DNA of 39,441 nucleotides from an uncultured Eubacteriales bacterium (GTDB taxonomy: Bacteria; Bacillota; Clostridia; Lachnospirales; Lachnospiraceae). The notes below the pieces were generated by a model, which had not been told where the DNA came from, made no database searches, and saw only the letters and a program-made list of their open reading frames with translations. This document shows, in pieces, positions 648 to 27,176 of the stretch (the first letter of the stretch is position 1; each line of letters begins with the position of its first letter). Made by a program: the position numbers and the translations under genes. The DNA lies in NCBI GenBank assembly GCA_949294665.1, contig CASFID010000016.1, forward strand, positions 1 through 39,441, written 5' to 3'.

Positions 648-677
648 ACATATAGTTAGCAAAGACTAACTATATGT
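648..677. promoter_or_regulatory. Palindromic operator candidate before eno (GTTAG-N6-CTAAC)
   Basis: Two perfect 12-base inverted arms (648-659 and 666-677) are separated by CAAAGA. The core, GTTAG-N6-CTAAC at 655-670, begins 7 bp after the predicted -10 box. The same core occurs at the same distance behind the -10 boxes of ahpC (19248-19263) and of the ABC pair (27146-27161). The outer arm lies upstream of the likely start point, which suits a DNA operator better than an RNA hairpin. No T-run follows, so it is not a terminator. Confidence 0.6.
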
Positions 678-697
678 GAATGAATCATGGAAACTCC

Positions 698-734
698 TTT
701 GCCCCATAACGCCTGAAACGGGGCAGAGGGCGTT
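698..734 (+). ncRNA. Possible H-type pseudoknot in the eno leader
   Basis: TGCCCC (700-705) pairs with GGGGCA (720-725), and AACGCC (708-713) pairs with GGCGTT (729-734). The arms interleave in the order A, B, A', B', the topology of an H-type pseudoknot with loops of 2, 6 and 3 bases. The last arm ends 8 bases before the likely ribosome site GGAAAGGA (741-748). It could act on translation of eno. It did not match the fluoride riboswitch consensus as I know it. Structure predicted by eye only. Confidence 0.35.
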
Positions 735-757
735 TTCGTGGGAAAGGACGAAGAGGT

Positions 758-23649: not shown

Positions 23650-25380
23650 TTACAGCTTCCACCCGATTGCTTCTTTTCTTTCCCCTACGAATTCTGCGTA
23701 AATTCCCGTCTCCTTTATCAATTCTTCATGGGTGCCTTTCTGGACGATCCTGCCTTCGTTGATCACAAGGATCTGATCGGCGTTTCGGACGGTCTTAAGG
23801 CGATGGGCTATCATAATGATAGTCTTATCTCTTGTCAGAGCCTCTATGGCGGCCTGTAGCCGGTCTTCATTTTCGGGATCCACATTGGCTGTCGCTTCGT
23901 CAAAGATTACGATGGGAGCGTCTTTTAACATGGCGCGGGCAATAGAGATGCGCTGTTTTTCGCCGCCGGACAGTGACGCCCCGCCTTCCCCGATGACCGT
24001 GTCATATTCGTTCGGGAGAGCTTCGATGAAATTATGACAGCAGGCTTTCTTCGCGGCTTCCACAACTTCAGCATGGCTTGCATCAGGCCTTCCGAATTTA
24101 ATGTTGTTCTCGATCGTATCTGCAAAGAGATACACGTTCTGGAATACCATACTGATCTGATCCATGAGAGACTCCAGCGTATATTCCCTGATATCGTGTC
24201 CGCCGATGGATATAGAACCACCGTCAACATCCCAGAAACGGGCGATCAGGCTGCACATGGTTGTCTTGCCCGAACCGCTGGGTCCGACGATGGCAGTGGT
24301 GGTATTTTCCGGGATAGTCAGTGTGATATCATGGAGGATTTCCTTTTTATCATAGGAGAAATCCACATGTTCAAAAGCGATATCATGATTCTTTGGTAAA
24401 ATCTGTTTTCCGCCAGCGTCCATCTGCGGGATGTCGTCGATCTGTTCTGCATTGTCTATGGAGCTGCTTGCAACTCTCAGGATGCTCATGCCGCTTCCGG
24501 CAGACTGGATCTGGGCGAATACGAGAAATGCAATGATGACAGTCATAAGTGCATCCGCAGGCTCCATTGTTCCGTTTATATAGAATATGGCTCCGGCAAA
24601 GATCAGAAGGATGCTGAATACATGGAGGGTGATATCCTGAGCGAGAACATAAGGTGTAAACAGGTGCTCGATGTCCAGATTGCTTTTTTTGTTATACTCA
24701 AGTGCATCGCGTACTTTTTTGTCACCTTTTCCGGTCAGACAGAAAGATTTGATGATACTCATGCCCTGGATCTGCTCTAAGACGGCTTCGACAAGGATTG
24801 CTTCCGATTCCTGCCGCTTCGGCGCGACGGCAGCGGACCGTTTCTCCATAGCCGAGGTGATCCACAGATAAACGGCCGTGCCGGCTATAACGATCAGCCC
24901 GATCCTCCAGTCGAACAGCAGGACAAGGAGCGTGAATACAACGGCGTTGATAAAACCGCTCAGGGTGCTCACAAGCACCATGGGAGCAGTCGTCTCTACA
25001 TCGTCGAGCACTGTCGTCGTGATACCGGTGATCCTTCCAAGACTTTTCTCACTGAAATATCCCATGGGAACGCTTTTTAAACGGTTCCCGATATCAATCC
25101 TTTTATTTGCGGCCATGAAGTATCCTGCATGCGTCTGCTCAAGCTGTGCAAAATAATTCATACACGCCCGGCCTGCAATGCTTAAGACCAGCAGTACCAG
25201 TGAAGTCCATGCCGGCCGCATGGAGCTGTCACCAGACGTGAGAGCGAGAATGATGAAATAAATCGCTCCGACCTGCAGCATATAGAATACTGCGTGAAAG
25301 AACCCGAATATAATGGACTTGTTGATTTCTTTTTTTTCTTCTCCGGCGAAACGCCAGATTTTAGTCAATGATTCTATCAT
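23650..25380 (-). CDS. ABC half-transporter, second subunit
   Basis: A 576-residue ABC protein with an N-terminal six-helix membrane domain (about 1-310) and a C-terminal ATPase. Walker A GPSGSGKTT, signature LSGGEKQR, Walker B with catalytic glutamate IVIFDEATANVD and the H-loop IAHRL are all intact. The ATG at 25380 overlaps the stop of the preceding ABC gene (ATGA), so the two products almost surely form a heterodimer. Fold and pairing fit both multidrug exporters and YbtPQ/IrtAB-type siderophore importers; sequence alone does not decide. Confidence 0.9.
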   Translation of the reverse strand: MIESLTKIWRFAGEEKKEINKSIIFGFFHAVFYMLQVGAIYFIILALTSGDSSMRPAWTSLVLLVLSIAGRACMNYFAQLEQTHAGYFMAANKRIDIGNRLKSVPMGYFSEKSLGRITGITTTVLDDVETTAPMVLVSTLSGFINAVVFTLLVLLFDWRIGLIVIAGTAVYLWITSAMEKRSAAVAPKRQESEAILVEAVLEQIQGMSIIKSFCLTGKGDKKVRDALEYNKKSNLDIEHLFTPYVLAQDITLHVFSILLIFAGAIFYINGTMEPADALMTVIIAFLVFAQIQSAGSGMSILRVASSSIDNAEQIDDIPQMDAGGKQILPKNHDIAFEHVDFSYDKKEILHDITLTIPENTTTAIVGPSGSGKTTMCSLIARFWDVDGGSISIGGHDIREYTLESLMDQISMVFQNVYLFADTIENNIKFGRPDASHAEVVEAAKKACCHNFIEALPNEYDTVIGEGGASLSGGEKQRISIARAMLKDAPIVIFDEATANVDPENEDRLQAAIEALTRDKTIIMIAHRLKTVRNADQILVINEGRIVQKGTHEELIKETGIYAEFVGERKEAIGWKL

Positions 25381-27119
25381 TTTTCTGCACCGTCCTTTGC
25401 TCCGATATGTGCTTCCCACATTTCTCTGTATAATAAGCTTTCATCCAGCAGCCCGTCATGGGTCCCGGACTGCGCTACACGTCCGTTCTGAATAAGAAAG
25501 ATCTGATCCGCATCTGTGATCGTGGACAGCCGATGGGCTATGACGATCACGGTTTTCCCTTTCACAAGATTCGCCACGGCTTTCTGTATGACTGCCTCAT
25601 TTTCCGGATCAATGTATGCTGTCGCCTCGTCAAGAATGACTACCGGCGCGTCTTTGAGCATGGCTCTCGCAATGGCGATGCGCTGGCGTTCACCTCCGGA
25701 GAGATGTGCTCCGCCTCCGCCTACGATAGTATCATAGCCGTTCTCAAGACTGCGGATAAATCTGTCGCAACCTGCGGCTTTTGCCACTGCCTCAACTTCA
25801 GCGTCGGAAGCATCCGTCCGGCCCATCCGTATATTTTCACGGACTGTTTCGTCAAACAGGTAGTTGTCCTGTGAGACAAACGCCACCTGTGAGTAGAGCT
25901 GGTTTAACGGGATATCTTTCAGATCATGTCCACCCAGCGATATCGTCCCTTTTTTTACATCCCAGAATCCTGCAATCAGTTTTGCAATGGTGGATTTCCC
26001 GCTCCCGCTCGGTCCGACGAATGCTGCCATGGTTCCTGCGGGAATGTCAAGGGTGACGTTGTGAAGGACTTCTTCCCTTTCATGGTATCCGAATGATACA
26101 TCTTTTACATGGATATCTGTATCAGAAAATGTGACAGGATTCATTCCATGTGTCTGTTCTTCCCCTTTCAGGATGAAATCCACGTTCTCCACGATCGTAC
26201 CGACTCTTGCAAGGGAATCTACAAAATCCATGGCTGCCAGAAGTGGGCCGACTATTCCCAGTGAAAGTACGATCACGGTAATGAATGTATCCATGGATAA
26301 AGAGCCGCCCCGATACAGAAGCCAGCCTGCAGGGAGTATCGTGATCAGAGTCGTAGGCAGTACGGATTTTGCCGAGGAGACGGAGATCTGGCAGCTCTTC
26401 ATCCAATTATAGAAATAGGATGCATTCGCCTTTACACTGTCTGCAAAGCGGGCATAGGATTTATCTCCCTGATTGAATGCTTTGATGACTTCGATGCCGC
26501 CGATATACTCTACGATAGCAGCATTCATCCGCTGCGTCGTCTTAACAGATCCTTCGTACTTTTTCCCGTAGCCCGCCATGGCAAAGCTCATCAGGATCAT
26601 ACCGAGAGGAAGGGAAACAAGAGAGAGCAGCGCCATCCTCCAGTCCAGCATAAAAAGATAGATAAAAATGCAGACCGGTCCAAGAATGTTGGACGTCATC
26701 TCAGGCAGAAGATGGGCGAGAGGACGCTCCATACTTTCCACCTGATCGACAATGATCTGTTTAAGCTGACCGCTGGACGTATCAATAATAGTACCAAGGG
26801 GCATTTGGGGAAGCTTTGCGAGGATCCTTGACCTGATGTCCTTAAGAATCGTAAAAGTGGCGTTATGTGACAGAGAAAGTGCTCTGGCATAGAGCGTATC
26901 CCGAAGAATATAGCCGGCCAGTCCGAGCAGGCACCACTGAATATAGAACATGATGTCAGTCGTGCCGCTGATGAGAGCGATGATGATCCTTGCAGCTGCG
27001 AAATAGGGAAGCATTCCGGCAAGGACACCGATGCAGGCCGAAAGAACTGCGCAGATCAGCCTGCCGTGCTCCTTTTCTCCCAGTTCCCAAAGCCGTAGCA
27101 TAGGACTTTGCTTTTTCAT
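25377..27119 (-). CDS. ABC half-transporter, first subunit
   Basis: A 580-residue ABC protein: membrane domain about 1-310, ATPase about 335-575, Walker A GPSGSGKS (369-376), signature LSGGERQR, Walker B VVILDEATAYID, H-loop IAHRL. Both ATP sites of the heterodimer therefore look canonical. AAAGGAGGAG precedes the ATG. The gene lies downstream of a TetR gene, behind its own extended -10 element and a GTTAG-N6-CTAAC palindrome shared with eno and ahpC. Shared control with a peroxiredoxin would suit a metal or siderophore transporter, but this is only inference. Confidence 0.9.
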   Translation of the reverse strand: MKKQSPMLRLWELGEKEHGRLICAVLSACIGVLAGMLPYFAAARIIIALISGTTDIMFYIQWCLLGLAGYILRDTLYARALSLSHNATFTILKDIRSRILAKLPQMPLGTIIDTSSGQLKQIIVDQVESMERPLAHLLPEMTSNILGPVCIFIYLFMLDWRMALLSLVSLPLGMILMSFAMAGYGKKYEGSVKTTQRMNAAIVEYIGGIEVIKAFNQGDKSYARFADSVKANASYFYNWMKSCQISVSSAKSVLPTTLITILPAGWLLYRGGSLSMDTFITVIVLSLGIVGPLLAAMDFVDSLARVGTIVENVDFILKGEEQTHGMNPVTFSDTDIHVKDVSFGYHEREEVLHNVTLDIPAGTMAAFVGPSGSGKSTIAKLIAGFWDVKKGTISLGGHDLKDIPLNQLYSQVAFVSQDNYLFDETVRENIRMGRTDASDAEVEAVAKAAGCDRFIRSLENGYDTIVGGGGAHLSGGERQRIAIARAMLKDAPVVILDEATAYIDPENEAVIQKAVANLVKGKTVIVIAHRLSTITDADQIFLIQNGRVAQSGTHDGLLDESLLYREMWEAHIGAKDGAEK

Positions 27120-27145
27120 TTAAATCTCCTCCTTTACTAATGATG

Positions 27146-27176
27146 GTTAGAATAAACTAACTAGATGCTTTATATC
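27146..27176 (-). promoter_or_regulatory. ABC operon promoter with GTTAG-N6-CTAAC palindrome
   Basis: On the minus strand TGATATAAA is an extended -10 element (TATAAA at 27169-27174). Seven bases later comes the core GTTAG-N6-CTAAC (27146-27161). On the sense strand the core differs from the ahpC copy at only 3 of 16 bases. Confidence 0.55.

Follow-up and report, generated by a model that had tools for sequence, protein, structure and literature searches.

A palindromic operator, very probably DtxR type and iron responsive, at the promoters of eno, ahpC, and an ABC transporter in Lachnospiraceae

A Probable Iron-Type Operator in Front of eno, ahpC, and an ABC Transporter

Contig CASFID010000016.1 of assembly GCA_949294665.1, from an uncultured Eubacteriales bacterium of the family Lachnospiraceae, carries the palindrome GTTAG-N6-CTAAC in front of eno (enolase), ahpC (alkyl hydroperoxide reductase subunit C), and a pair of genes for ABC half-transporters. 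We analysed the 39,441-nt stretch spanning positions 1 to 39,441 of the forward strand of this contig (the window) together with related genomes, and we conclude that the palindrome is a real operator, very probably DtxR type and iron responsive, of a known kind. More specifically, the comparison of sequences makes it highly likely in our judgement that GTTAG-N6-CTAAC is the operator for one dimer of a DtxR-family iron sensor that lacks an SH3 domain and represses at the transcription start. The motif, its position and conservation, the set of genes behind it, a neighbouring DtxR gene, and a second box in many of the same promoters were all obtained by calculation. The window genome (G000; assembly 95.9% complete) was compared with a genus set assigned to Mediterraneibacter via named relatives.

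The window genome has seven exact copies of the palindrome, each of them preceding a gene. A scan of the whole 39-kb window locates three of them, at 655-670, 19248-19263, and 27146-27161, and no fourth exact copy anywhere in the stretch, which bears out a sequence-only reading that had placed one copy at each of three promoters; the ahpC and ABC copies are identical at 13 of 16 bases, also as that reading had it. Base composition predicts 0.041 copies in the window (P = 1.1e-5 for three or more), a value that is a guide only because the motif was picked after being seen; similarly, the probability that three of the seven copies fall on one 39-kb contig, 4.5e-5, was computed after the fact. 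The features that bear on the analysis are as follows.

595..609, no strand: Fur-like 7-1-7 box TGATAATcAATCTCA 5' of the eno -35 element (from enrichment in orthologous promoters)
619..647, plus strand: likely eno promoter, -35 TTGCTT, 17 bp, -10 TAATAT, weak here and stronger in relatives (read from the sequence)
654..671, no strand: predicted DtxR-type operator of eno, AGTTAGCAAAGACTAACT, inside the longer 648-677 palindrome (site in 43/58 genus eno genes)
758..2053, plus strand: eno, enolase (TIGR01060, 672 bits)
19185..19199, no strand: Fur/PerR-like box AAATAATaATTATCA 5' of the ahpC -35 element (sequence match)
19210..19239, plus strand: ahpC promoter TTGACA-18-TATATT (consensus scan, 11/12 bases)
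19247..19264, no strand: predicted DtxR-type operator of ahpC, AGTTAGTTATTACTAACT (site in 14/19 genus ahpC loci)
19308..19871, plus strand: ahpC, alkyl hydroperoxide reductase subunit C (TIGR03137, 294.7 bits)
19883..21562, plus strand: AhpF-like reductase, same strand as ahpC and 3' of it (TIGR03143, 693.9 bits)
23650..25419, minus strand: ABC transporter, half-transporter 2 (PF00005, PF00664)
25377..27119, minus strand: ABC transporter, half-transporter 1 (PF00005, PF00664)
27145..27162, no strand: predicted DtxR-type operator of the ABC pair, minus-strand AGTTAGTTTATTCTAACC (before 8/8 orthologous ABC genes)

The sequence-only reading had each copy begin 7-8 bp after the -10 box. Likely boxes at all three genes agree with this: the distance from the last -10 base to GTTAG is 7 bp at eno (TAATAT, 642-647), 8 bp at ahpC (TATATT, 19234-19239), and 7 bp at the ABC pair (TATAAA, 27174-27169, minus strand). 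A consensus promoter scan returned a -10 at the expected place for ahpC only (11/12 consensus bases); the eno promoter was absent from its output. At the ABC pair, the promoter favoured by the scan (TTGATA-18-TATTCT) has its -10 within the palindrome, so this placement is the least sure of the three. Orthologues of eno have better boxes at the same place (TTGAA..TAAGAT/TATGAT). The eno copy further extends to a perfect palindrome at 648-677 with 12-bp arms, ACATATAGTTAG-N6-CTAACTATATGT.

Match to Published DtxR-Family Sites

It had been argued from the sequence alone that the arms recall DtxR/IdeR sites and that the six-base spacing differs. The published one-dimer IdeR consensus, TTAGGNNNNCCTAA, is itself TTAG-N6-CTAA, with each monomer reading one CCTAA (PMC8464063); the argument against a DtxR-type site therefore falls. 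Each of the three window cores matches 8 of the 10 fixed bases of this one-dimer site, as does the core of the EqbA operator, and all have the TTAG and CTAA arms at a spacing of six. The full 19-bp two-dimer box with four CCTAA repeats is absent from these sites, which hold one dimer site with arms AGTTAG rather than TTAGG. At genes that IdeR represses, its box overlaps the start, the -10 element, or both (PMC10317159), and the palindrome lies over the start or -10 of the predicted promoters here.

The closest experimental precedent is EqbA, a DtxR-like protein of Streptococcus equi that represses the equibactin cluster and whose operator, in the promoter of eqbB, includes GTTAGATGTATCTAAC (PMC3672683). 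Binding by EqbA responds to Fe2+, Zn2+, and Mn2+ and needs the palindrome, deletion of eqbA raises the eqbE transcript 13-fold, and the operator was described as unlike other iron boxes (PMC3672683).

Conservation at the Three Loci and in the Genus

A site with zero to two mismatches precedes 43 of the 58 eno genes in the genus (29 exact, 11 with one, and 3 with two mismatches), and among these sites the arms are constant and the six central bases variable. The 58 genes come from 56 genomes, with G034 (no such gene) and G019 (a fragment) outside the count and with L082 (site) and L091 (no site) entered by hand. Among the best 80 eno loci of named relatives, which include Mediterraneibacter, 49 have a site within 300 bp upstream compared with 1.45 in shuffles and 0/80 in coding stretches of equal length, and the mismatches are distributed bimodally, at 0-2 or mostly at 4-6. 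Site-bearing species include Konateibacter massiliensis, Candidatus Galacturonibacter soehngenii, and Oliverpabstia intestinalis. For ahpC, where 19 of 21 good matches were examined, 14 of the 19 loci have a site with at most two mismatches. The ABC operator stands before all eight orthologues that have a full upstream region, the window's own copy included, with one or two mismatches to the 18-mer AGTTAGN6CTAACT and with CTAAT instead of CTAAC in three of the eight; four more distant homologues (L384-L387) gave 3, 2, none, and 3 mismatches, respectively. The operator is thus kept mostly where its gene exists, eno alone of the three being close to universal in the genus. The check on conservation that the sequence-only reading had proposed for these loci came out in favour of the motif wherever the gene is present; ahpC and the ABC pair are themselves absent from most genus genomes.

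Across 37 genus genomes the 18-mer occurs 67 times compared with 0 for the reversed control (hand-summed), and it is present in 34 of these genomes and in 44 of all 61 genomes in that comparison. Sites in the genome and its relatives stand in front of genes and the motif exceeds its control in the genus, so the placement check proposed with the motif came out in its favour. The strength of the motif lies in its position and conservation rather than in its genome-wide count, and the claim of a real operator near the start, most likely for a single regulator shared by eno, ahpC, and the ABC pair, stands.

Several further observations concern the eno region. A ParE-type toxin gene lies at 212-526, directly 5' of the eno promoter, and the operator-less locus L091 has a stretch similar, by eye, to the ParE-type toxin region before eno. 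A second enolase-like gene, about 32-61% identical, is found in many of the 58 genus genomes, and the operator is absent from all nine second-paralogue enolases that were checked (L129-L137); G034 has a single enolase-like gene, 61% identical. The eno leader (671-757) is conserved in the genus across 19 rows, with an invariant GTGAAT-N-AATCATG followed by a strong CCTGA-loop hairpin, and its TCCTTT could alternatively pair with the AAAGGA ribosome-binding site. The single-sequence fold of the leader has a z of -3.8; the consensus fold contains no both-sided changes in the hairpin, and Rfam returned nothing in the window at the gathering threshold. In L088, L090, and L092, repeated GAAACACCGCAGGGGTGTACCA-like units lie between operator and eno.

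The Genes behind the Sites Resemble an Iron Regulon

We took a census of 92 distinct exact 18-mer sites at loci fetched by pattern, among the matches listed, in which the genes were named by simple sequence patterns at 48 sites and by Pfam on one gene per site at 40. The next gene encodes DUF2325 at 22 sites, an ABC half-transporter at 15, DtxR at 5, flavodoxin at 5, enolase at 4, DUF3793 at 4, AhpC at 3, DUF454 at 3, FeoA at 3, and an HMA protein at 2; the census undercounts eno, since recognised eno places were left out when further loci were fetched. Single cases are feoB, FecCD, Peripla_BP_2, ZIP, a ferric-reductase-like gene, and NifH. The remaining sites comprise 16 with other or unassigned genes (three methyltransferases, two LCM, LysR, radical SAM, AraC, AstE, RCC1, and six unassigned) and 4 without a start. 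A ferritin gene (in L184, near a DtxR gene) and a NEAT-domain gene also lie beside some sites. Taken together, the neighbours look like an iron regulon, in which feoA/feoB, beside a DtxR gene in divergent orientation, are accompanied by flavodoxin, DUF2325, ABC pairs, ahpC, and eno. The three window loci had been grouped as glycolysis, peroxide defence, and an ABC transporter; these seemingly unrelated genes are most likely joined, as parts of an iron-type regulon.

Two further site-bearing regions of the window genome have a composition of their own. On contig C61 (L010:7857-15733), a row of genes with two operators comprises an ABC pair and genes for an AraC regulator, a Trep_Strep protein, a two-domain ABC ATPase, and a DtxR protein; the row is reminiscent of the eqb cluster on ICESe2 and has conjugative-looking neighbours by eye. 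On contig C44 (L008:4490-9601), the operator and a Fur-like box lie in a promoter region common to a DUF454-like gene, an ABC pair, and a MarR gene that runs divergently and has a Cys-rich stretch.

A DtxR-Family Protein Is the Candidate Regulator

In five loci of relatives (L175, L183, L184, L156, and L344), the site lies between feoA and a divergent DtxR gene. In G002 the feo-linked DtxR has 122 aa and matches PF01325 and PF02742 (Fe_dep_repress and Fe_dep_repr_C) with no third domain, and the DtxR encoded on C61 of the window genome also matches both models. An orthologue of the feo-linked protein (at least 73% identity) is found in 55 of 58 genus genomes including all 35 of high quality, and in G002, G026, and G066 a DtxR gene lies directly 3' of a window-type ABC operon on the same strand. 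Given this arrangement and the same core in the EqbA operator, the regulator, which the sequence-only reading had called unknown, is very probably a DtxR-type iron repressor without an SH3 domain, as predicted from these sequences.

Beyond the genus, we surveyed 246 genomes of the order and found the motif in 113 and the reversed control in about 40 (hand count). Of the 32 genomes whose DtxR homologue is strong (E 1e-40 or better), 24 have the motif, as do 80 of the 177 whose homologue is weaker and 9 of the 37 with none; strong homologue versus none gives Fisher P = 3e-5, in statistics that ignore kinship. This tally was made by hand, and its 17 unlisted genomes are those absent from the homologue table.

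A Second, Fur-Like Box in the Same Promoters

The earlier description of the promoters was incomplete in that it missed a second, Fur-like box 5' of the -35 element at eno and ahpC. A 7-1-7 inverted repeat is the Fur/PerR box consensus, and such a repeat is present near these promoters. At a threshold of 10/12 bases, TGAKAA-N3-TTMTCA is enriched 44-49 bp 5' of the operator, with 38 matches in these six offsets compared with 0.43 per other offset. The scan covered 211 non-redundant sites (323 minus near-duplicates) from all loci, including those from the eno, ahpC, ABC, and DtxR queries, and these sites are not independent by descent. At offsets 43-50, the box occurs in 19/42 eno promoters (shuffle expectation 0.17), 13/24 for DUF2325 (0.09), 3/8 for ahpC (0.04), 0/14 for dtxR (0.04), and 4/123 others (0.27). 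Among the eno promoters of L101-L128, a box score of at least 11 at any position is reached in 8 of the 14 with an operator versus 0 of the 14 without one, and L126 has a perfect box, TGAGAATCATTCTCA. The ABC pair has no clear Fur-like box (best score 9). The window genome encodes two Fur-family proteins, and G002 has a Fur-family gene near feoB. We infer Fur or PerR as the probable reader of the second box.

Weighing the Evidence

A number of observations weigh against an iron-responsive DtxR-type operator, or against its strong form. The raw count in the window genome, seven exact 16-mers against 3.7 expected from composition (P = 0.08; reversed control 1), is about twice expectation and not striking. 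Outside the genus the signal is weaker: the reversed control reaches up to ten copies per genome (9 in G232 and 10 in G288, both without the motif), and because it occurs there too, single matches can be chance. In the genus, 15 of 58 eno genes lack a good site, a good ahpC orthologue exists in only 19 of 58 genomes and 5 of the 19 loci are without a good site (L347 is degenerate with three mismatches, and four have none), and ABC orthologues at least 75% identical exist in only 9 of 58. As to the regulator, the feo-linked DtxR was not found in the window assembly, where feoAB has only a Fur-like palindrome and no DtxR-type site; G069 and G014 (88% and 75% complete) keep sites without the feo-linked gene, the copy in G070 has an internal stop, and of the two sulfur ligands of an iron-type primary site, Met10 and Cys102, the candidate has the Cys but Asn at the place of IdeR Met10, as in some MntR, which bears on the choice of metal. 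Neither expression nor binding measurements for these species turned up in the literature we searched, nor did a study of a DtxR regulon in Lachnospiraceae.

The one match to the feo-linked protein in the window assembly, 39% identical, lies on C61, which bears two of the seven sites, and the reader in this strain may be the C61 DtxR or a gene missing from the assembly. The lactate dehydrogenase that adjoins DtxR in G002 is also missing from the window assembly (best match 42%), which fits an assembly gap and is no proof of one.

Of the other explanations, that of a DtxR-family reader sensing manganese in the manner of MntR draws on the facts that the best-matching solved structures are MntR proteins, that the Asn just mentioned occurs in MntR, that EqbA responds to Mn2+ and Zn2+ also, and that a ZIP-family gene lies behind 1 of the 92 census sites. 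We nevertheless regard it as unlikely, for the targets include feoA, feoB, FecCD, the ferric-reductase-like gene, and flavodoxin, ferritin lies near the DtxR gene in L184, and in an alignment the candidate DtxR has Cys where MntR has Glu99. A MarR-family repressor as reader, for example the Cys-containing MarR beside the C44 copy, is slightly less plausible still. Its gene, encoding 151 aa, is divergent from the site-bearing DUF454/ABC operon (L008:9146-9601) and has a close copy at L154 in G020; by eye, in the site contexts viewed and with no MarR profile run over all loci, such a gene was noticed at the DUF454 locus only and not at the feoAB, DUF2325, eno, ahpC, or flavodoxin sites. We rejected this reader on that ground and on the experimental precedent for the core, which is a DtxR protein, EqbA.

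A hairpin in the mRNA at its 5' end would suit the location of the palindrome, which coincides with the likely start of transcription at eno, ahpC, and DUF2325, and the 6-bp stem into which the eno copy folds. At the feoA sites of L156 and L183, however, the likely -10 (TTGACA-17-TATACT) is, by eye, inside the palindrome, and in L181 the palindrome fills the space from TTGACA to TACAAT, so at these loci it would lie upstream of the start; on this geometry the hairpin was rejected as very improbable. That the palindromes are functionless products of chance would accord with the modest genome-wide count of 16-mers, but the 18-mer excess over its control in the genus and the best 80 named eno promoters, with their empty coding stretches, reduce this to the most improbable of the explanations, and it was rejected on these counts.

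Proposed Mechanism and Meaning

We infer the identity of the protein in Lachnospiraceae, iron as the signal, and repression as the sign of control. The DtxR-type sensor would be related to IdeR, MntR, and EqbA, and its gene, in related genomes, is divergent from feoA-feoB. With ample Fe2+, the metal-loaded dimer would occupy its palindrome on or close to the transcription start, blocking initiation; when iron falls, the dimer would be released, which would permit expression of the genes for ferrous uptake and ABC transporters together with flavodoxin, DUF2325, ahpC, and eno. The Fur-like box just 5' of the -35 in many such promoters, eno among them, would probably place two iron or peroxide sensors on one promoter, where Fur or PerR may add repression or fine control.

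The presence of enolase is the unexpected part of this proposed regulon. Enolase is a Mg2+ enzyme, and we know of no iron requirement for it; an enolase gene under one and often two iron-type boxes, conserved, raises the question of why glycolysis should answer to iron. One guess is that, with ferredoxin enzymes starved of iron, cells might shift the load on lower glycolysis. Whether Lachnospiraceae promoters are read by two iron sensors, a Fur-type one 5' of the -35 and a DtxR-type one at the start, with enolase as a core member and carbon flow wired to iron, is to us an evenly balanced proposition. If true, a doubly gated enolase would run against the pattern for low-GC Gram-positives, in which iron is left to Fur and DtxR proteins are kept for manganese (PMC10317159). 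The analysis offers a testable iron regulon, with an operator and a candidate regulator, for a common family of gut anaerobes, and it would broaden to the scale of a bacterial family what had been observed in single cases (EqbA, and the one-dimer site of IdeR).

Comparison with Known Systems

The EqbA operator on ICESe2 of S. equi shares the GTTAG-N6-CTAAC core, an SH3-less DtxR protein, and iron genes with the sites described here (PMC3672683), and C61 of the present genome likewise joins a DtxR gene to ABC transporters. EqbA controls one siderophore cluster on a mobile element, whereas here many loci including eno and ahpC carry the site. The two-domain build of the candidate is shared with MntR of Bacillus subtilis, MntR proteins being the top solved-structure matches; it differs in having Cys for Glu99 and iron genes as targets, and the MntR operator differs in sequence from GTTAG-N6-CTAAC. 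Control of iron genes through Fur boxes is likewise found in a clostridium, Clostridioides difficile, and the main text of that study contains neither the word enolase nor the word DtxR (PMC6311696). The IdeR/DtxR boxes of Actinobacteria have TTAG-N6-CTAA per dimer and a repressing site over the start or -10, as here (PMC8464063, PMC10317159); they differ in the 19-bp two-dimer box, in GG/CC next to the TTAG arms, and in the SH3 domain of the protein, and the one-dimer IdeR site, the form that the Lachnospiraceae palindrome resembles, was reported as a first example (PMC8464063).

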